Shown here piece after piece: positions 10,246-56,916 of a stretch of DNA of 64,000 nucleotides. Below the pieces are notes generated by a model that made no database searches, was not told the origin of the DNA, and saw only the letters and a program-made list of their open reading frames with translations. Made by a program: the position numbers and the translations under genes. Source of the DNA: an uncultured Bacteroides sp. (GTDB taxonomy: Bacteria > Bacteroidota > Bacteroidia > Bacteroidales > Bacteroidaceae); assembly GCA_944322345.1 (NCBI GenBank), contig CALUOO010000001.1:186001-250000 (forward strand), in the 5' to 3' direction. Each line of letters starts with the position of its first letter. Position 1 is the stretch's first letter.

Positions 10246-12552
10246 TCATACATCATTTCTTGACGAGAAAAAATCTTTTGCCTGTCGGAGAATTCCTTCT
10301 GTAAGTTCTATCACTTGTAACGCAGTATCTCTTACTTTGTCAGTGAACATTCCTCCTTTGTTGCTTTCCAACCAACGGAGTAAAGAAACCGTTTCTGAAG
10401 CGCCAATCAAAGTAAAAAGAGGAAGTAATTTATGTGCAATAGCTGCTATGTCATCGGTCTGATTTTCTTTCAATGCCAGTCTCATCCGTTCCATGCTTTT
10501 CGTTGTTTCTTCTATAAAGCTCTGTAGAATTGCCTCACCTGCTTCCTGATCATCACCCGAAAAAGCCGTTAAAGCCGAAAAGTCTAATCCTGCATTTATT
10601 TTGCCTTCCGTTTCTGTTTCTTTATCTACCGCTATATTGTCCCCGCTGACAACAGCCAACAACTCTTTTGCTGTAAAAGGTTTATGCAGGCATCCGGCAA
10701 AGCCATGAGCCTGTAAGGACTGATCATCCATTTCACTACGTGCAGTCACTGCTATAATAGGTATTTCGTGTGCTTGTGGAATGTTCGAAGCTCGCAACAG
10801 TTTCAACAGATCAAACCCATTAATGGCAGGCATTTGAATATCTGTCAGCAGCACATCAAACTTTTCAGTGCGTAGCTGTTCTATCAATTGGTCTATTTGC
10901 TCACAACACACAGCTTTCATACCCGCTTGCTCCAACATAGCCTGAGTCAGTTGTAACTGTATCTTATCGTCATCAATCAATAGGACCTTCAATGCCTTTA
11001 GCGGTACCTCCTTTTCAGCTGCAGTTTCCACCGGCAAATGATTTCCTTTTCCCATAACCGACCTTCCTACCGGGAAAAGCGGAAGGGTAACAGTAAAACA
11101 GCTACCTTCACCCAAAGTACTTTCCACATTAATACTCCCTTCCAATAAGGTAACCAGTTTTTTTACAATAGAAAGCCCCAATCCAAAGCCCTCTTCTCCT
11201 TGCGCACCCGGAAGACGTGTAAACTCTTGGAAAATACGTTCCCTATCTTCCGATGCCATACCTTTGCCCGTATCGGACACGTCAATGATAATATGTGAAG
11301 AACGATAAGTTGCATTAAGGGTTATTCCTCCCTTCGACGTAAATTTAACTGCATTAGACAGCAGGTTATTCACAATTTGACGAATACGTAGCGGATCGCT
11401 GATATATTTACCAAACAGCTCCGGATCAATTTCACATTTCAAGAATAGTCCCTTCGCCGACGTCAAAGGTTCGAAGCTGACACGTATCTCCTCAAACAAT
11501 TGTGCCGGATTGAAAACGACCCTATTTACTTCCTCTTTATTCAAATCAAGACGATGAAAATCCAATAAGTCACTAACCAGTTTCAACAAATGCTCCGAAG
11601 AACTTCTCATATTCGTCAAATAGAATTTCTGGCGCTCGTCTTCAGTCAGGCGAGACAGCAAATCTGTATATCCCATGATAGAGCCAAGTGGTGCCTTAAA
11701 GTCGTGTGTTATGGCCAACATCATTTTTTCACGTGCTTCGAGCAAATCTTCTGCCCGCTTGTTAGCCTCCTCCAATTCTTTACGGTGCCGGTTTCTGTGT
11801 GTAATATCTCTCCCTATTATTATTAAGAAAAATGCCGACAGCGTCACTGCTCCAATTGCAATCCATGCAATAGTACGTGCAGAACGCATTCTTACCTCTT
11901 GTTGCCATTCTGCATCCTGTTGGGCACGTAAGGACATATTTACCTCATATCCTTTAATCAGACTGTCCATTCTCTCTGTCAGCTGATTATTGACACGCTG
12001 ATAACGGGTTGTCGTATATCTAATTTTTTTTTGCCTTCGTTGCAACTCCTCTTCCCTCTCCATCCGCCTTTTTTGTTGCAAAGAATCGGTTACCGGAATC
12101 GTAGGCTCCAGAATAGTATCTGTAGCCACTTCCATCGATGTATTCACCAACACGGCACTGTCTTGCTTGGAAGGAACAAAGGCCTCAGCCAGCCGTTTGA
12201 GAAACCCCTTTTTCTTAGGAGGGACCAATACTGTATCCCGTTTAGTTGCTACCCGATGCTGTACACGCTGCAAAGTGATGACAGTATCTTGTTCTGAAAT
12301 GGTTTCCTCAACTTCCGAATAAGCCAACAGACTATCATTAGCCTCACTCAATACCCTAAGCATACGCAAGGTATTTTTATCCTTCTCGCGAAGAAGTACC
12401 ATCAGACTGTCAGTCAACAGGCTCTGTTGATCATCTGCTTCCGACAGTTTTTCCATCTCACGGTATACAAAAACCAATGAGCCAAACATGATAGCCAGCA
12501 GCAATGAGAAGCCAATCGTAATCTTCAATCTTGTAAAACGAGAAGAAGCCAT
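10246..12552 (-). CDS. Hybrid sensor histidine kinase with receiver and Hpt domains
   Basis: This 768-residue inner-membrane sensor has a transmembrane helix at 11-30 and another at about 228-247. They enclose a ~195-residue periplasmic region rich in coiled-coil and charged residues. The cytoplasmic part carries HisKA with His283 (AITHDFKAPLG), HATPase_c (N400, DTGKG, GFGLGL), a receiver domain (acidic pocket IDDD, Asp571, Lys624) and a C-terminal Hpt domain with His707 (AIAHKLLPL). This is a full His-Asp-His relay that still needs a downstream response regulator. The nearest candidate is the sigma-54-type regulator at 16199, divergent from the gene run that ends with this kinase. The signal sensed is unknown. 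Confidence 0.9.
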   Translation of the reverse strand: MASSRFTRLKITIGFSLLLAIMFGSLVFVYREMEKLSEADDQQSLLTDSLMVLLREKDKNTLRMLRVLSEANDSLLAYSEVEETISEQDTVITLQRVQHRVATKRDTVLVPPKKKGFLKRLAEAFVPSKQDSAVLVNTSMEVATDTILEPTIPVTDSLQQKRRMEREEELQRRQKKIRYTTTRYQRVNNQLTERMDSLIKGYEVNMSLRAQQDAEWQQEVRMRSARTIAWIAIGAVTLSAFFLIIIGRDITHRNRHRKELEEANKRAEDLLEAREKMMLAITHDFKAPLGSIMGYTDLLSRLTEDERQKFYLTNMRSSSEHLLKLVSDLLDFHRLDLNKEEVNRVVFNPAQLFEEIRVSFEPLTSAKGLFLKCEIDPELFGKYISDPLRIRQIVNNLLSNAVKFTSKGGITLNATYRSSHIIIDVSDTGKGMASEDRERIFQEFTRLPGAQGEEGFGLGLSIVKKLVTLLEGSINVESTLGEGSCFTVTLPLFPVGRSVMGKGNHLPVETAAEKEVPLKALKVLLIDDDKIQLQLTQAMLEQAGMKAVCCEQIDQLIEQLRTEKFDVLLTDIQMPAINGFDLLKLLRASNIPQAHEIPIIAVTARSEMDDQSLQAHGFAGCLHKPFTAKELLAVVSGDNIAVDKETETEGKINAGLDFSALTAFSGDDQEAGEAILQSFIEETTKSMERMRLALKENQTDDIAAIAHKLLPLFTLIGASETVSLLRWLESNKGGMFTDKVRDTALQVIELTEGILRQAKDFFSSRNDV

Positions 12553-16198: not shown

Positions 16199-17542
16199 AT
16201 GACGAAATCTATATTAATTGTTGAAGACGATATTACTTTCGGCATGATGCTAAAAACCTGGTTAAGTAAAAAGGGATTTGAAGTATCATCTGTGAGTAAC
16301 ATTGCCCGTGCGCATAAGCATATCGAAAGCCAGACTGTCGATTTAATTCTGTCCGACTTACGCCTGCCCGATCAGGATGGTATCGACCTTTTGAAATGGC
16401 TGAATAAACAAGATAAAAATATCCCTTTAATCATCATGACAGGCTATGCAGATATCCAATCGGCTGTGCAAGCCATGAAATTGGGAGCACAAGATTACAT
16501 AGCCAAACCTGTCAATCCCGAAGAACTGCTAAAAAAAATCACAGAAGCACTGCAAAGCAGCCAGCCATCTCTCAAAGTTGTTTCCGGAAAAGAGTCGCCT
16601 GCCAGCAACCCTTCACTGCATTCTTATCTGGAAGGAGAAAGTGATGCAGCCAAACAGCTTTACAATTACGTCGGGTTGGTAGCGCCGACCAATATGTCCG
16701 TACTGATAAACGGATCCAGCGGCACAGGCAAAGAATACATAGCCCACCGGATACATCAGCTCAGCAAAAGAAGCGACAAGCCGTTCATTGCAGTCGATTG
16801 CGGATCAATCCCCAAAGAATTGGCTGCCTCCGAATTTTTCGGTCATGTAAAAGGTTCATTTACAGGAGCACTCAGCGATAAGACAGGAGCATTTGTTGCA
16901 GCCAACGGAGGAACTATTTTTCTGGACGAGATAGGGAATTTGAGCTACGAAGTGCAAATACAGCTTTTGCGCGCCCTACAGGAACGGAAAATCCGTCCGG
17001 TAGGTTCAACACAGGAAATCACGGTAGACATCCGGCTGATTTCTGCTACCAACGAAAATCTGGAGCAGGCCATCGAGAAAGGGACTTTCCGGGAAGACCT
17101 TTATCACCGCATCAACGAATTTACCCTGCGCATGCCAAGCCTGAAAGACAGAAAAGAAGACATTCTCCTCTTTGCCAATTTCTTTCTCGATCAGGCCAAC
17201 AAAGAGCTTGACAAACATTTAATCGGTTTTGACGATAAAGCTTCTAAATTATTATTGGACTATCACTGGCCGGGAAATTTACGACAAATGAAGAACATCG
17301 TAAAACGGGCAACTCTATTGGCACAAGGCAACTTCATTACCCCCATTGAACTTGGCACAGAGTTGCAGGAAACTCCGGTCGTCCATACCAGTATGGCTCT
17401 GCGTGATGAGACATCCGAAAAGGAGCACATCATGGAAGCACTACGACAGACCGGAAACAATAAGAGCAAAGCAGCCCAATTGTTAAGCATAGACAGAAAG
17501 ACCTTATATAATAAATTGAAACTATACAACATCGACTTATGA
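16199..17542 (+). CDS. Sigma-54-dependent response regulator (NtrC family)
   Basis: This 447-residue activator has a receiver domain (Asp53 in LILSDLRLP, Lys103), a AAA+ domain and a Fis-type helix-turn-helix. The AAA+ domain shows Walker A GSSGTGKE (172-179), the sigma-54-contacting loop GSFTGA (219-224, a mild variant of GAFTGA) and Walker B FLDE (241-244). The Fis-type HTH covers roughly 408-447 (NKSKAAQLLSIDRKTLYNKL). It should bind upstream sites and remodel RpoN holoenzyme. The hybrid kinase at 10246 ends with an Hpt domain and lacks an adjacent partner, which makes this regulator its best local partner. One possible target is the sigma-54 promoter at 20940, which is not otherwise assigned. 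Confidence 0.93.
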   Translation: MTKSILIVEDDITFGMMLKTWLSKKGFEVSSVSNIARAHKHIESQTVDLILSDLRLPDQDGIDLLKWLNKQDKNIPLIIMTGYADIQSAVQAMKLGAQDYIAKPVNPEELLKKITEALQSSQPSLKVVSGKESPASNPSLHSYLEGESDAAKQLYNYVGLVAPTNMSVLINGSSGTGKEYIAHRIHQLSKRSDKPFIAVDCGSIPKELAASEFFGHVKGSFTGALSDKTGAFVAANGGTIFLDEIGNLSYEVQIQLLRALQERKIRPVGSTQEITVDIRLISATNENLEQAIEKGTFREDLYHRINEFTLRMPSLKDRKEDILLFANFFLDQANKELDKHLIGFDDKASKLLLDYHWPGNLRQMKNIVKRATLLAQGNFITPIELGTELQETPVVHTSMALRDETSEKEHIMEALRQTGNNKSKAAQLLSIDRKTLYNKLKLYNIDL

Positions 17543-17592: not shown

Positions 17593-18978
17593 ATGAGAAA
17601 ACCTTTTCTTACCCCTATTTTTCTCTTGTTTTTTACCATTTGTGCGTTTGCTCAAGAGCGTACAGTCACAGTGCCCAAGCCCCATCAGTTAAAATGGCAT
17701 GAAGCCGAAATGGGTGCAGTTTTCCACTACGATTTGCACGTATTCGATGGTATCCGGTACGGACAGGGCAACAACCGTATCAATCCTATCGAAGACTACA
17801 ACATCTTTAATCCCAAACAGCTAAACACAGACCAGTGGATACAGGCAGCCAAAGATGCCGGATGCAAGTTTGCCATACTGACAGCCACTCACGAGACCGG
17901 ATTTGCACTATGGCAAAGCGATGTCAACCCTTATTGCATGAAAGCAATCAAATGGAAAGACGGGCAAGGCGACATTGTACGCGATTTTGTCAACTCCTGC
18001 CGTAAATACGGGATACAGCCGGGCATTTACATCGGCATACGCTGGAACTCCCTATTGGGCATTCACAATTTTAAGGCCGAAGGCGAAGGTGAGTTTGCAC
18101 GCAACCGTCAATTATGGTACAAACATCTATGCGAAAAAATGGTAACCGAACTCTGTACACGGTACGGAGAATTATTCATGATCTGGTTCGACGGAGGTGC
18201 CGACGATCCACAGGGAGACGGTCCGGATGTAGAGCCAATAGTCAACCGTTATCAGCCAAACTGCTTGTTCTATCACAATGTCAATCGTGCCGACCTGCGT
18301 TGGGGTGGTTCAGAGACCGGTACAGTAGGCTACCCGTGCTGGTCAACTTTCCCGACTCCGGCATCCCATCACAAGAATTCGGAAGGCACGGCCAATCAGC
18401 TGCAACTGCTGAAACACGGAGACAAAGAAGGGAAATATTGGGTCCCGGCAATGGCAGACACACCCTTACGCGGAGCGAACGGGAGGCATGAATGGTTCTG
18501 GGAGCCCGATGATGAGAACAACATCTATTCGCTGGACGAACTGATGGATAAATACGAAAAGTCTGTCGGACGCAACGCCACGCTTATCTTGGGGCTCACT
18601 CCAGACACAGCCGGCCTCATTCCGGCAGGTGATGTCCGTCGGCTCAAGGAACTGGGAGATGAAGTCAGAAAACGTTTTTCATCGCCTCTAGCCCGCACTT
18701 CAGGCAAAAAGCAGAAATTACTTCTCAGTCTGAAAGACAAACGTCCCATCGACTATTGCATCATCCAAGAAAACATAAAAGAAGGAGAACGTATCCGTCA
18801 GTACAAAATCGAAGCTAAAGTCGACGGAAAATGGAAAACTGTCTGCTCCGGCGAATCAGTCGGTCACAAACGGATAGAAAAATTCGACCCGATAGAGACA
18901 GACTTGTTGCGACTGACAGTAATAAATTCCATTGCACAGCCGGACATTACAGATTTCAGTGCCTATTCAACCAAATAA
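17593..18978 (+). CDS. GH29 alpha-L-fucosidase
   Basis: This 461-residue secreted enzyme begins with a signal peptide (FLLFFTICAFAQ). The GH29 fold is recognised from LKWHEAEMGAVFHYDLHVFDG, KFAILTATHETGFALW and ELFMIWFDGG, where Asp200 is the expected nucleophile. It should release alpha-linked fucose from glycoconjugates with retention of configuration. The C-terminal ~100 residues form a beta-rich appendage that ends in a discoidin-like strand. The gene is followed after 22 bp by a sulfatase, suggesting sequential trimming of sulfated, fucosylated glycans such as mucins. No SusCD pair lies nearby. Confidence 0.9.
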   Translation: MRKPFLTPIFLLFFTICAFAQERTVTVPKPHQLKWHEAEMGAVFHYDLHVFDGIRYGQGNNRINPIEDYNIFNPKQLNTDQWIQAAKDAGCKFAILTATHETGFALWQSDVNPYCMKAIKWKDGQGDIVRDFVNSCRKYGIQPGIYIGIRWNSLLGIHNFKAEGEGEFARNRQLWYKHLCEKMVTELCTRYGELFMIWFDGGADDPQGDGPDVEPIVNRYQPNCLFYHNVNRADLRWGGSETGTVGYPCWSTFPTPASHHKNSEGTANQLQLLKHGDKEGKYWVPAMADTPLRGANGRHEWFWEPDDENNIYSLDELMDKYEKSVGRNATLILGLTPDTAGLIPAGDVRRLKELGDEVRKRFSSPLARTSGKKQKLLLSLKDKRPIDYCIIQENIKEGERIRQYKIEAKVDGKWKTVCSGESVGHKRIEKFDPIETDLLRLTVINSIAQPDITDFSAYSTK

Positions 18979-19000
18979 CTAACACATAAAAAAATCCCCC

Positions 19001-20560
19001 ATGAACAAGAAATCAGTTTTATCAATCCTTGCACTTGCACCTGCAGTTGCAAGCCATTCGTATGCAGAGTCACCGGGCAACAATGCCGGCAACCAGACAG
19101 ACAACCGTCCCAACATCATTCTCTTTATGGTAGACGATATGGGATGGCAAGACACTTCGCTCCCGTTTTGGAATCAGCAGACCAAGTACAACCGGCTATA
19201 CGAAACTCCTAACATGGAGCGTCTGGCCAAGCAGGGAATGATGTTCACACAAGCCTATGCCAACAGCATCAGCTCGCCATCAAGATGCAGTTTGATGACC
19301 GGTACCAATGCTGCAAGACATCGGGTTACAAACTGGACACTGCAAAAAGACAAACCGACTGACCGTAAAAGTAACCTATTGGAAACACCGGAATGGAACT
19401 ATAACGGTATCAGCCAGGTGCCGGGAACAAACAACACCTTTGTCGGCACTTCGTTTGTCCAGATACTCAAAGACAACGGCTATCACACCATCCACTGCGG
19501 GAAAGCCCATTTCGGTTCGATAGACACTCCGGGAGAAGACCCGCATCACTGGGGATTCGAAGTGAACATTGCCGGACATGCAGCAGGAGGGCTGGCCAGC
19601 TATCTGGGCGAACAGAACTACGGACACGACAAAAACGGAAACCCCATATCCCTTATGTCCGTCCCCGGTCTGGAAAAATATTGGGGAACAGACACATTTG
19701 TGACCGAAGCACTCACTCAGGAAGCCATCAAGGCTTTGGACAAGGCAAAAAAATACAATCAGCCATTCTATCTATATATGGCACATTATGCCATCCATGT
19801 CCCACTGGATAAAGACATGCGCTTCTACGATAAATACAAAAAGAAAGGGATGACCGACCACGAAGCAGCTTATGCCAGCCTCATCGAAGGAATGGACAAA
19901 AGTCTTGGCGACCTGATGGACTGGCTCGAGAAAAACGGAGAGGCAGACAACACCATCATCATCTTCATGAGCGACAACGGAGGACTGGCTGCCGAGCCTT
20001 ACTGGCGCGACGGACAGATACATACACAAAACTATCCGCTGAACAGCGGAAAAGGGTCGCTCTACGAAGGTGGTATCCGCGAACCGATGATTGTCAGCTG
20101 GAAGGGAACCGTAACGCCCGGCAGCAGGTGTAACAATTATCTTCTGATAGAAGATTTCTACCCCACCATCCTCGAAATGGCAGGCGTCAGAAAATACAAG
20201 ACCATACAGCCCATCGACGGAGTCAGCTTTATGCCTCTGCTCACACAGACCGGAAACCCGTCGAAAGGCCGTAACCTCTATTGGAACATGCCCAACAACT
20301 GGGGCAACGACGGACCGGGAATCAACTTCAATTGTGCTGTCCGCAGTGGCGACTGGAAGCTGATCTATTATTATGCAGACGGCAAAAAAGAGCTGTTCAA
20401 CATCCCCGAAGACATCGGCGAGCAGCACGATCTGAGCCAGCAGCATCCCGATATAGTCAAGCGTCTGTCCAAGCAGTTGGGCAACTACCTGAGAAAGGTG
20501 GATGCACAGCGCCCCATCCAGAAAGCAACCGGCAAGCCCTGCCTGTGGCCTGACGAATAG
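19001..20560 (+). CDS. S1-family sulfatase, serine type
   Basis: This 519-residue alkaline-phosphatase-superfamily sulfatase has an N-terminal signal peptide. Metal-binding residues lie in NIILFMVDDMGWQD, and the formylglycine motif is S-S-P-S-R (residues 91-95) followed by MTG. Ser91 at the nucleophile position means maturation by an anaerobic radical-SAM sulfatase-maturating enzyme, as usual in Bacteroides; none is encoded in this window. IIFMSDNGG and SGKGSLYEGGIREP carry further conserved active-site residues. It should remove sulfate esters from a carbohydrate. Co-transcription with the GH29 fucosidase is likely (22-bp gap). Confidence 0.92.
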   Translation: MNKKSVLSILALAPAVASHSYAESPGNNAGNQTDNRPNIILFMVDDMGWQDTSLPFWNQQTKYNRLYETPNMERLAKQGMMFTQAYANSISSPSRCSLMTGTNAARHRVTNWTLQKDKPTDRKSNLLETPEWNYNGISQVPGTNNTFVGTSFVQILKDNGYHTIHCGKAHFGSIDTPGEDPHHWGFEVNIAGHAAGGLASYLGEQNYGHDKNGNPISLMSVPGLEKYWGTDTFVTEALTQEAIKALDKAKKYNQPFYLYMAHYAIHVPLDKDMRFYDKYKKKGMTDHEAAYASLIEGMDKSLGDLMDWLEKNGEADNTIIIFMSDNGGLAAEPYWRDGQIHTQNYPLNSGKGSLYEGGIREPMIVSWKGTVTPGSRCNNYLLIEDFYPTILEMAGVRKYKTIQPIDGVSFMPLLTQTGNPSKGRNLYWNMPNNWGNDGPGINFNCAVRSGDWKLIYYYADGKKELFNIPEDIGEQHDLSQQHPDIVKRLSKQLGNYLRKVDAQRPIQKATGKPCLWPDE

Positions 20561-20649
20561 CACAATTCTCTAATATCCTAAAGAAAAGGTATTAAAGAAC
20601 TAAGCCACAAGAATACGGTAATCAATATCTTTTTTGCCCATTTCTTTTG

Positions 20650-20735
20650 CGTATCACTTAAGTCAACCGTTCGTATCACTTAGGTTATCCGTTCGTATCA
20701 CTTAGGTGTTACAAACGGTCAACCTAAGTGATACG
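20650..20735. repeat. 22-bp intergenic repeat array, three direct units and one inverted
   Basis: Units beginning CGTATCACTTAGGT start at 20650, 20672 and 20694 with an exact 22-bp step; the third is cut short. An inverted full unit lies at 20714-20735. The array can fold into a long hairpin just downstream of the sulfatase stop codon. It resembles in period, though not in sequence, the arrays at 28604 and 55792. Confidence 0.85.
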
Positions 20736-20813
20736 CAAAAAAATAGCGGAAGAAAATCTCTATGGAACGAAAGTTCGGCAATAATCTACCACAAGCAATG
20801 TAGAAACAGAATA

Positions 20814-20873
20814 GTGTGGAATAATTCCACACCACGATGCCTTTTTCCACACATTCTCCACCCTATTCCACAC
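20814..20873. promoter_or_regulatory. Putative enhancer-binding sites with TTCCACAC half-sites
   Basis: A perfect 19-bp palindrome GTGTGGAATAATTCCACAC (20814-20832) is followed by further TTCCACAC copies at 20845-20852 and 20866-20873. The three same-orientation copies are 20 and 21 bp apart, about two helical turns. The last lies 66 bp upstream of the -24 element. This is the usual layout for activators of sigma-54 promoters. The cognate protein is not known. Confidence 0.6.
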
Positions 20874-20939
20874 CCGGCAGAATCTACCGAAGAGGAATTA
20901 CACGCTGATATACAGCAATTTGCCAAACAATTTCTAGTT

Positions 20940-20955
20940 TGGCACGCACTTTGCC
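20940..20955 (+). promoter_or_regulatory. Sigma-54 (-24/-12) promoter for the small exported protein
   Basis: TGGCACGCACTTTGCC matches the sigma-54 consensus TGGCACR-N4-TTGC, with GG and GC separated by exactly 10 bp. Transcription would start near 20966, giving an untranslated leader of about 87 bases before the ATG at 21053. Confidence 0.75.
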
Positions 20956-21052
20956 ATATACAGAAGTGTAAGTCGAAAACAACCGATACCTTAACATATA
21001 AAAGAGAGAATTGGAAACTGAAAAAACAGATGTTTAACTTAAGCAAACGGAT

Positions 21053-21244
21053 ATGAAGAAATTAGTATTAGTAGTAGCAATGTTTATGTTTGTTTGTGGT
21101 GGTTCATTCCTTGTAAAGGCTCAGAGTAACTCTGAAGAAGCTGCGACAGCCCCAACAGAAGTGAAAGCAATTGTAATTGTGAACGATACAGCAGTTTCAG
21201 ACACGGTAGTTCAGGATACAATTGCTAAGCCTGTCAAGGAATAA
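21053..21244 (+). CDS. Small exported protein of unknown function (63 aa)
   Basis: It begins with a clear Sec signal peptide (KKLVLVVAMFMFVCGG, cleavage after VKAQ). The mature part is only about 39 residues, acidic and threonine/valine-rich, with repeated DT pairs (VNDTAVSDTVVQDTIAKP). No known domain is recognised. It is the only gene positioned to be driven by the sigma-54 promoter at 20940, and a terminator follows at 21303. Just after the stop codon another frame reads TYTKPAETKPAE then stop (21244-21282), which looks like a natural repetitive C-terminus and may point to a frameshift that shortened the protein. Confidence 0.7.
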   Translation: MKKLVLVVAMFMFVCGGSFLVKAQSNSEEAATAPTEVKAIVIVNDTAVSDTVVQDTIAKPVKE

Positions 21245-21302
21245 CCTACACAAAACCTGCAGAAACAAAGCCTGCCGAATAATAGTAAGCACACTATATA
21301 GC

Positions 21303-21341
21303 AAAAGCCATCCCTACTTGTCTATTCCGGGGGTGGCTTTT
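21303..21341 (+). terminator. Rho-independent terminator
   Basis: AAAAGCCATCCC (21303-21314) pairs with GGGGTGGCTTTT (21330-21341) with one G-T wobble, followed by CTATTTT. It ends the single-gene transcript of the small exported protein. Confidence 0.8.
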
Positions 21342-21395
21342 CTATTTTCCATCAAAAAGATACCTTTTCTTCCTCTCTATCTCAATAAAATATCG

Positions 21396-21403
21396 TATTT
21401 TTG
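21396..21403 (+). promoter_or_regulatory. -7 box for the EEP-family gene
   Basis: TATTTTTG matches TAnnTTTG, 22 bp before the ATG at 21426. No -33 TTTG is seen at the right distance. Confidence 0.45.
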
Positions 21404-21425
21404 ACGCCGAACAAACTATAATGAT

Positions 21426-22358
21426 ATGAAAGCAAAAAACCTATTACTAATCGCATTTTCAATAATTCTTTTCTGCAATTGCCAGAGCTATCGGCCTACT
21501 ACCATCAACGTAGCATCCTACAACCTGCGGCAGGCCAACAGCGGAGATTCTGCCAGCGGCAACGGATGGGGACAACGCTACCCGGTTATAGCTCAAATGG
21601 TTCAATTTCACGATTTTGATATTTTCGGGACACAAGAGTGCTTCCTGCATCAGTTGCAGGACATGAAGAAGTCACTTCCCGGATACGATTATATAGGAGT
21701 GGGCCGCGACGATGGCAAAGAAAAAGGAGAACATTCCGCCATTTTCTACCGTACCGACAAGTTTGAGGTCATCGAAAAAGGAGACTTCTGGCTATCGGAA
21801 ACTCCCGACGTACCCGGCAAGGGATGGGACGCCGTTCTGCCGAGAGTCTGTAGCTGGGGACACTTCAAATGTAAGGACACCGGATTCGAATTTCTCTTTT
21901 TCAACCTCCACATGGACCATGTAGGCAAACAGGCGCGGGTAGAAAGCGCTTTTCTGGTACAAAAGAAGATGGAAGAGCTGGGGGCAAACCTTCCTGCCAT
22001 CCTGACCGGAGACTTCAACGTAGACCAGACCCACCAGTCATACGACGCTCTTGTCAGCAAAGGTGTGCTGTATGATGCCTACGAAAAAGCCGATTTCCGC
22101 TATGCCACCAACGGTACATTCAACAGTTTCGATCCCAACAATTTTACAGAGAGCCGGATCGACCACGTATTTGTATCGCCAGTCTTTCATGTAAAGAAAT
22201 ACGGAGTGCTGACCGACACCTATCGCAGTGAAAAAGAGAAAAAACAAAAAGCAGATGTCAAGGACGCTCCTCAAGAGATCACCGTCAAGGCATATCAGGC
22301 ACGCACACCGTCCGACCACTTCCCTGTAAAAGTGGTATTGGAATACAACCGGAAATGA
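21426..22358 (+). CDS. Endonuclease/exonuclease/phosphatase-family lipoprotein
   Basis: This 310-residue protein has a lipoprotein signal (ILFCNC, Cys at about residue 19) followed by a complete EEP fold. Motifs are VASYNLRQANSG, FGTQEC with the metal-binding Glu, FFNLHMDH, LTGDFNVD, SRIDHVFVS and the final SDHFPV with the catalytic His. EEP enzymes cleave phosphodiester bonds in nucleic acids or lipids. Envelope forms in Bacteroides that accompany glycan-degrading genes may act on phosphorylated glycans or teichoic-like polymers, but this is not proven. It sits between a sulfatase group and a GH125 mannosidase. Confidence 0.88.
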   Translation: MKAKNLLLIAFSIILFCNCQSYRPTTINVASYNLRQANSGDSASGNGWGQRYPVIAQMVQFHDFDIFGTQECFLHQLQDMKKSLPGYDYIGVGRDDGKEKGEHSAIFYRTDKFEVIEKGDFWLSETPDVPGKGWDAVLPRVCSWGHFKCKDTGFEFLFFNLHMDHVGKQARVESAFLVQKKMEELGANLPAILTGDFNVDQTHQSYDALVSKGVLYDAYEKADFRYATNGTFNSFDPNNFTESRIDHVFVSPVFHVKKYGVLTDTYRSEKEKKQKADVKDAPQEITVKAYQARTPSDHFPVKVVLEYNRK

Positions 22359-46954: not shown

Positions 46955-46970
46955 TGGCACAGCTTTTGAC
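46955..46970 (+). promoter_or_regulatory. Sigma-54-type promoter of the export operon
   Basis: TGGCACAGCTTTTGAC fits TGGCACR-N4-TTGC apart from A in place of C in the -12 GC. GG and GA are separated by exactly 10 bp. Start near 46981, giving a 25-base leader to the ATG at 47006. No TAnnTTTG box is seen in this gap. Confidence 0.65.
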
Positions 46971-56082: not shown

Positions 56083-56916
56083 TCAGAAGAGAGCCGGGAT
56101 TGCCAACAGCTGATAGAGCAATGTACGTGCCATCCGCTCCTGCCCCAATGTGTTGGGATGCAGACGGTCTGTCTCCTTGTCACGGAAATAGACCACCTGT
56201 TCGTCGACCATCGGATTCATTCCGCTGCATGCATTGAGGTCGATTACCGAAACTCCCCAAAGGCTGCCGGCTTCCTTTACAGCCTGCACATAGGCGTCGA
56301 TATACTCTCCGCAACTGTTCTGATAGCTTTCATCGGGTTGCACGTTGTCTTCTCCAAAAGTGGCATAGGCACGGTGCAGCGGAGTGAGCAATACAATCTG
56401 CTTGTCCGGAAAGAGCTGTTTCAGCCTGCTGATACCCACATTGATTCTGCCCTTATAGGTATTCCGGTCCATCACAAGCGTTCTCCTGACACGCGCCATC
56501 ATCTGTCCGCGGGCACCCTTTACCTGCTCCGGTGCTTCGGTAAACCATTCGCCGACAGGGATACCGGAGTTATAGTCGTTCGTCCCCATGAACACCAGAA
56601 TGGCATCTACCTCCCCGCCGTGCTCTTTCTTCAGCTGTTCCGCCTGACGGGGGACATCATCCCACTGCCTGCCGTTGACTGCACACACAAAGGACGTCGT
56701 GCCCAACCAGTCTTCCAGAAACGACCAATATCTCTTGACATCGGTATAACAGCCGGGATCGGTAATCGAGTCGCCGATATATCCGATCCGTACTCCGAAC
56801 CACGGATGACGCACCGTCCCGTTCTTCTCCACCACAGGCTTCTCCGGCTTGGGCTGTGCATCAGCCACCAGCCAGCCTGCGCAGACAAACAGCATAAGAA
56901 TAAAAAGTCTTTTCAT
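56083..56916 (-). CDS. Secreted SGNH/GDSL hydrolase
   Basis: This protein of about 277 residues has a signal peptide (FILMLFVCAGWLVADAQ). SGNH features are IGYIGDSITD with the nucleophile Ser, VDAILVFMGTNDYN with Asn and Gly, and the final DRLHPNTLGQERMA with Asp and His. It should be an esterase, for example a deacetylase of carbohydrate esters. An in-frame ATG at 56928 would add four residues. It is 27 bp downstream of the GH78 gene and most likely removes ester groups from the same glycan. Confidence 0.9.
   Translation of the reverse strand: MKRLFILMLFVCAGWLVADAQPKPEKPVVEKNGTVRHPWFGVRIGYIGDSITDPGCYTDVKRYWSFLEDWLGTTSFVCAVNGRQWDDVPRQAEQLKKEHGGEVDAILVFMGTNDYNSGIPVGEWFTEAPEQVKGARGQMMARVRRTLVMDRNTYKGRINVGISRLKQLFPDKQIVLLTPLHRAYATFGEDNVQPDESYQNSCGEYIDAYVQAVKEAGSLWGVSVIDLNACSGMNPMVDEQVVYFRDKETDRLHPNTLGQERMARTLLYQLLAIPALF

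Follow-up and report, generated by a model that had tools for sequence, protein, structure and literature searches.

A putative response-regulator- and sigma-54-activated RNA of Bacteroides, found with and without a small exported-protein reading frame

We carried out a comparative analysis of a small transcription unit within a 64,000-nt stretch of an uncultured Bacteroides genome (hereafter the window). The unit probably specifies a structured RNA of Bacteroides which is activated by a response regulator and sigma-54 and is itself functional, acting in this species as a dual-function RNA that also encodes a 63-residue exported protein while existing elsewhere without the open reading frame (ORF). 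Comparison between genomes shows a shared architecture, conserved elements, co-variation of a stem termed P2 and retention of the RNA in units without the ORF. From these features we infer that the unit is transcribed, that the RNA has a function and that it acts in trans. Since many species have lost the protein yet keep the RNA, it is probably the RNA on which the role of the unit depends.

According to the mechanism we propose, a signal would be passed on by a kinase relay, perhaps involving the hybrid kinase encoded at 10246-12552, to the response regulator encoded from 16199. Once phosphorylated, this regulator would bind a phased array of TTCCACAC half-sites and activate sigma-54 RNA polymerase at 20940-20954. 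This would yield a structured RNA some 375 nt in length (20966-21341, plus strand, as predicted from promoter and terminator, with transcription presumably starting at about 20966), with a terminator at its end that carries the invariant loop GUCUAUUC. This RNA would most likely act in trans as a small RNA via its GU-rich core and/or the terminator loop, the likeliest partners being mRNAs or an RNA-binding protein. The same RNA would, in this species and in roughly half of the units compared, also be the mRNA for the small exported protein, with signal-peptide codons overlapping the RNA core and the end of the ORF here falling within P2. Elsewhere, the ORF would have been lost and the RNA alone would remain.

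Conserved elements of the RNA

Related units were compiled from genome samples that are draws from larger groups. Entry into the resulting set of 54 units required a promoter box with at most three errors and a core-like 16-mer. The presence of box and core in this set is thus given by construction because both were entry criteria, while their degree of identity and all other elements were not fixed in this way. The nearest unit to that of the window is found in genome G030.

The conserved RNA core (21062-21099, plus strand) lies over the signal-peptide codons and is kept in ORF-less units. Within coding units, core codons 4 to 18 were identical in 2140 of 2776 comparisons in which the same residue was kept (0.77). 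For the regulator gene of the same 23 coding genomes, the corresponding values averaged 0.45 and reached at most 0.58 (133 gene windows, 253 pairs). Synonymous sites are thus under much stronger constraint in the core codons than in the regulator gene.

The unit ends in an intrinsic terminator at 21303-21341 (plus strand) whose loop, CTTGTCTATTC, occupies 21317-21327. The loop motif GTCTATTC was identical in 49 of 49 cases with compensatory changes at 9 of the 12 stem pairs, and it is the only element that is universal across units. A search of the window's own genome with a terminator model yielded one strong hit (1.9e-9), the next one scoring 0.005; this represents the fairer test of specificity for the loop. 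Although 76 of 78 distinct loop contexts in the 1.59 Mb of fetched loci were preceded at no more than 700 nt by the core or TTCCACAC and the other two were units as well, this count says little about specificity because the loci share sequence with one another and most of them were retrieved around units. Of 301 genomes from the family, 19 matched the terminator model (R1), including 17 that belong to the genus, while five genus genomes were without a match under the strict filters used. Two weak matches outside the genus turned out on reading to be ordinary terminators without GTCTATTC. The unit is usually single, the model having matched once in each of these 19 genomes; exceptions are G043 and two loci in which the gene of the unit occurs in tandem, L211 of B. 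nordii and L224 of B. salyersiae. At locus L010, GTCTATTC occurs twice in a doubled terminator loop.

In most units, the stretch following the core is paired, as stem P2, with a second stretch located at the end of the ORF or close to it. In the window, its 5' arm lies at 21097-21130 and its 3' arm, which covers the stop codon, at 21221-21253 (both plus strand), whereas in L025 to L030 the stem falls inside the ORF. Many ORF-less units show P2 as a tight hairpin. The sequence of the stem differs between clades while complementarity is retained, and when the arms of 46 units were combined with foreign partners, a median of only 2.3% of these paired as well as the unit's own partner, with none doing so in 20 units. 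The pair table of P2 is no independent test because it was chosen to pair. Compared with shuffled sequences, P2 had a mean z of -2.7. Values above -1 were seen in 11 of the 46 units (coding: L022, L024, L103, L167; ORF-less: L133, L164, L165, L171, L174, L175, L191), in some of which a short hairpin was cut by the fixed split of the test. Downstream of P2 lies a conserved 3' box (GCCGAATAATAGTAAGCACACTA, 21274-21296, plus strand), seen across units as GCCGAAnAAnAGTAAGCACACTAAC, which is located at or past the stop codon in coding units and is also present in most ORF-less units. Four units (L100, L176, L177, L192) are missing both P2 and the 3' box.

A pairing between the core and the 3' box was predicted by RNAalifold, without co-variation. 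With a mean z of -0.87 and a median of 34.5% of foreign partners pairing as well, it was not adopted and is kept as a possible interaction; the best single hint of co-variation comes from L103, where ten pairs (AAGTTAATTT/AAATTAGTTT) can be formed. The overall fold of positions 21053-21349 in the window has a z of -4.8 and is better than 200 of 200 shuffled sequences. Values for relatives were -6.4 (L087 and L130) and -5.9 (L020).

Regarding possible targets, a search for near-complete complements of the core in 20 genomes returned 94 hits. Sixteen of these were the units themselves, leaving 78 compared with 65 in a reversed control, so that core complements are hardly enriched. A recurrent near-match, CCACAATCAATCATAAA, read in L308, L309 and L311, is not considered a target because it is antisense to the start of an ORF, presumably encoding a ribonuclease Z-like protein. 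The scarcity of complements, together with the invariance of the loop in 49 of 49 cases, would fit an RNA that binds or titrates a protein through its loop instead of pairing with mRNAs, in the manner of the decoy RNA CsrB. We consider such a role possible but unlikely, since each RNA carries a single loop, not many, and the core is conserved even in units that have neither P2 nor the 3' box.

Units with and without the reading frame

The ORF of the window (21053-21244, plus strand) encodes a signal peptide followed by a variable low-complexity tail. Both the signal-peptide ORF and a downstream terminator hairpin, here placed at about 21303-21341, had been part of the original prediction and are present. 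Homologues of the protein were detected in 41 of 99 genus genomes (E <= 0.001). The protein had no Pfam hit and no NCBIfam match at cut-off; a similarity to the PhrK pheromone family of NCBIfam was discarded, as it scored 16.8 against a required 35 bits and covered only residues 1-27, that is, the signal peptide. In the mature region, 88 close pairs, which are not independent of each other, differed at codon positions 1, 2 and 3 by 508, 486 and 1152 substitutions, respectively. The coding ORF is thus under protein-level selection, and the protein is probably real in coding species. It follows that part of the core conservation in these species is driven by the protein.

The view that the unit is devoted to one tiny exported protein could not be upheld: the ORF is gone in about half of the units, while array, promoter, core and loop are kept. 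Among the 54 units, 25 carry an ORF of the MKKLVLV type, 24 lack an in-frame ATG upstream of the core, three possess an ATG but are open through the terminator and two have tandem copies. Where ORF-less units were inspected by eye, an ATG internal to the core led only to short, unrelated frames. The 24 start-less units keep both core and loop, and P2 co-varies, indicating that the RNA is conserved independently of the ORF. An independent exact search for the 19-mer core TGTTTATGTTTGTTTGTGG in a named genome collection returned 67 matches, comprising 26 coding units, 29 without an in-frame start (three of which have less than 25 nt of upstream sequence and are therefore incompletely classified), three open through the terminator and nine outside units. 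ORF-less examples include B. fluxus YIT 12057, Mediterranea massiliensis and B. ndongoniae. Because the records of these three species are not titled as metagenome-assembled genomes, ORF-less units are not only metagenome artefacts.

Several individual loci deviate from these classes. In L088 and L121 the first gene copy is damaged while the second one codes. In L163 (genome G089) the core has been lost, but the array, the promoter, the 3' box and the terminator loop are present. As for the nine 19-mer matches outside units, four lie in records assigned to other taxa and look like chance, and five lie in Bacteroides. Four of the latter immediately precede the terminator that follows a gene for a B12-binding-domain protein (the domain was tested in L204) and the fifth in a tRNA row. 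Their positions are 6198 in L204 (reverse complement), 191 in L229, 911 and 964 in L260 (duplicated) and 638 in L215 (reverse complement).

The unit might instead be nothing but the mRNA of a small exported protein, with constraint resulting from cis-acting mRNA structure that affects translation or stability and with ORF-less units representing decaying pseudogenes that have had no time to diverge. The excess of third-position differences, the occurrence of the protein in 41 genomes and the fact that P2 embraces the ORF in the window are all consistent with this explanation. We nevertheless judge it improbable. In the 27 units without a usable ORF (24 lacking an ATG and three open-through), TGTTTATGTTTGTTTGT is exact in 26, compared with a synonymous codon identity of 51% between the regulators of the 27 ORF-less genomes (59046 of 116083 comparisons, 351 pairs). 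Further, ORF-less units keep the loop, many of them have different but complementary P2 hairpins, and start-codon lesions, as read in the units, vary from genome to genome. Decay would not lead to this pattern. An RNA that is functional in its own right, with or without the ORF, remains our preferred reading.

The direction of change was addressed using a quick, midpoint-rooted tree of 69 regulators to which states were assigned by hand: 35 coding (two of them tandem), 27 ORF-less (three open-through and one core-lost) and seven unclassified. ORF-less units are confined to one half of the tree, the other half containing 24 coding and six unclassified rows. Five changes of state were counted, at least two of which are forced by well-supported branches. 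This distribution suggests that the ORF was repeatedly lost from an already functional RNA, while the opposite direction may apply given that the tree is rooted at its midpoint without an outgroup. The further-reaching scenario is one of repeated conversions from mRNA to regulatory RNA, in which a sigma-54-activated mRNA for an exported protein already contained a functional RNA within its signal-peptide codons, several Bacteroides lineages independently dropped the protein and kept RNA, dedicated activator and loop motif, and the core was reused elsewhere in a few genomes. Whether it is correct appears to us evenly balanced.

Relation to described systems

Small RNAs activated by sigma-54 and an NtrC-type protein are known from Proteobacteria, namely Qrr with LuxO, GlmY with GlrR and CrcZ with CbrB. 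Similar to the unit described here, a response-regulator enhancer-binding protein and a sigma-54 promoter are devoted to a small RNA in these systems. To our knowledge, none of them contains an exported-protein ORF in its core. With regard to the combination of RNA and protein, the closest parallel is the enteric SgrS/SgrT system, where one transcript likewise unites a regulatory RNA, a terminator and a small ORF and is encoded beside the gene of its own activator. However, the pairing region of SgrS is located downstream of the ORF, whereas the core of our unit is the signal-peptide coding sequence itself; the window in addition has a long stem reaching from just after the core to the end of the ORF, and the unit is associated with an NtrC-type activator and a sigma-54-like promoter. 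By analogy, the unit may work as SgrS/SgrT does, as a dual-function RNA, under control of the Qrr/GlmY/CrcZ type. Some species appear to keep the SgrS RNA without a functional small protein (PMC4021124). Trans-acting small RNAs have also been described in the same genus. These are GibS and FopS of B. thetaiotaomicron, which are described with sigma-ABfr or PM2 promoters, not sigma-54, and 14 paralogues are given for FopS, whereas our unit is usually single (PMC7366714, PMC11697453). The term RpoN is absent from the text of PMC7366714.

A search of Rfam 15 returned nothing at gathering score for positions 20500-21500 of the window and only tRNAs in 14 loci. E-value hits to plant and animal microRNAs were far below gathering scores, lay mostly on an inverted repeat at 20640-20742 and were disregarded. 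We found no description of the unit among the matches listed for the open-access literature. If our interpretation is true, an entire response-regulator/sigma-54 circuit in gut Bacteroides would be devoted to a single RNA for which Rfam gave no match at threshold. The unit would also offer a natural before-and-after series for the conversion of a bacterial mRNA into a non-coding RNA, as related species with and without the ORF share the same kind of promoter and the same RNA elements. For genome annotation it is a warning that conservation of a signal peptide does not necessarily point to the protein as the conserved feature.

Promoter, half-site array and candidate regulators

The putative enhancer includes a palindromic activator site, GTGTGGAATAATTCCACAC (20814-20832), an exact pair of facing half-sites that is unique in its genome and, being of odd length, perfect except for the central base. 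It is followed by two further TTCCACAC half-sites on the plus strand at 20845-20852 and 20866-20873. The TTCCACAC starts at 20825, 20845 and 20866 are thus separated by steps of 20 and 21 bp, and the spacing is helically phased across units: 66 of 73 steps between successive TTCCACA motifs measure 9-12, 20-22 or 29-32 bp. All four copies of TTCCACAC in the window lie within 60 bp, compared with 2.17 expected in 64 kb. Exact facing half-sites and exact tandem half-sites within 30 bp both occur in the 3.2-Mb genome at this locus only, with reversed-pattern controls giving zero, and a search for a second exact half-site array in the same genome found none. The array, being unique, probably serves one target, in line with a single activator-dependent unit as suggested by the original prediction, whose palindrome and phased half-sites were likewise recovered and recur across the genus. 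Exact facing half-sites were detected in 24 of 99 genus genomes and are situated upstream of the unit in those that were read. Within the 190 nt preceding the promoter box, at least two exact TTCCACA/TGTGGAA half-sites are conserved in 46 of the 54 units, while four have one and four have none. Three of these last four have an array 224-378 nt before the box; in L170 no array was seen within 700 nt of the box. An array variant, TTCTACAC, in G039 and G060 was compared with the recognition helix of the regulator, which is nearly identical, and no co-variation was seen. Directly upstream of the array, positions 20643-20742 contain four CGTATCACTTAGGT-like copies (three direct, one inverted) forming a hairpin. 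This repeat has no other match in the window (0.31 expected by chance) and one more copy among the fetched loci, in L080.

A sigma-54-type promoter, TGGCAC-N4-TTTGC, follows at 20940-20954 on the plus strand (TGGCACGCACTTTGCC spans 20940-20955), the median distance from last half-site to box being 69 nt in the units compared. All 54 units have at most one error relative to TGGCAC-N4-TTTG (43 with none, 11 with one). The promoter had been called near-perfect, which is true for the window copy, where C follows TTTG and the box fits TGGCAC-N5-TTGC with fixed GG/GC spacing, but not for the family: the base 3' of TTTG is A in 38 units and otherwise C (9 units), G (6) or T (1), so that the GC dinucleotide is mostly GA in relatives. 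Taken alone, the box is weak evidence, with 12 sites genome-wide against 3 in a reversed control; what establishes the arrangement as genuine is its conservation among the units. Two other good sigma-54-like boxes, both without an array, are located in the window at 56117-56132 (minus strand, TGGCACGTACATTGCT) and 46955-46969 (plus strand, TGGCACAGCTTTTGA). GrpE transcription in B. thetaiotaomicron is called sigma-54-dependent in PMC12316311, and a sigma-54 factor has accordingly been reported in the genus. It is highly improbable that the box is coincidental, with sigma-54 uninvolved and another promoter driving the gene, since, despite the frequent A in place of the C of the usual TTGC, GG and TTTG stand at a fixed spacing after a phased array and the adjoining NtrC-type activator has a sigma-54 interaction domain. 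We therefore favor a unit that would depend on sigma-54.

The likely activator is an NtrC-type response regulator encoded at 16199-17542 (plus strand), in which Pfam recognizes a receiver, a sigma-54 activation domain and a Fis-type HTH. Orthologues were found in 71 of 99 genus genomes (E <= 1e-140), and 69 of them could be anchored with their flanks. In 38 of these 69, no more than 100 nt separate the regulator stop codon from the start of the array, and in 11 the array lies further off. A strict definition of the array, requiring two exact half-sites within 70 nt of each other, left 20 without one in the sequence covered per locus (up to 4 kb). Several of these 20 genomes have the unit elsewhere or carry variant half-sites. 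On the regulator tree, the half containing the window shows this adjacency in 9 of 30 cases and the remaining half in 29 of 39. The window's own regulator is separated from the unit by a fucosidase-like gene and a sulfatase (17593-20560), and in L052 a sulfatase lies between the two. A phased upstream array, in 38 of 69 cases next to a regulator with a Sigma54_activat domain, is what an AAA+ activator would use as its enhancer, and this proximity argues for the regulator at 16199, already proposed as the activator, as the protein that would bind the array.

Its earlier description as an orphan is doubtful. A hybrid histidine kinase is encoded 3.6 kb away at 10246-12552 (minus strand) in a divergent neighbouring gene row that also comprises a cyclophilin, an M16 peptidase and a MATE transporter. 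The kinase has HisKA, HATPase and receiver domains and an HPt match of 20.7 bits (cut-off 24.6), and would be the natural candidate for the partner and sensor of the regulator. A matching kinase is found at the corresponding place in both relatives checked (L064 and L068).
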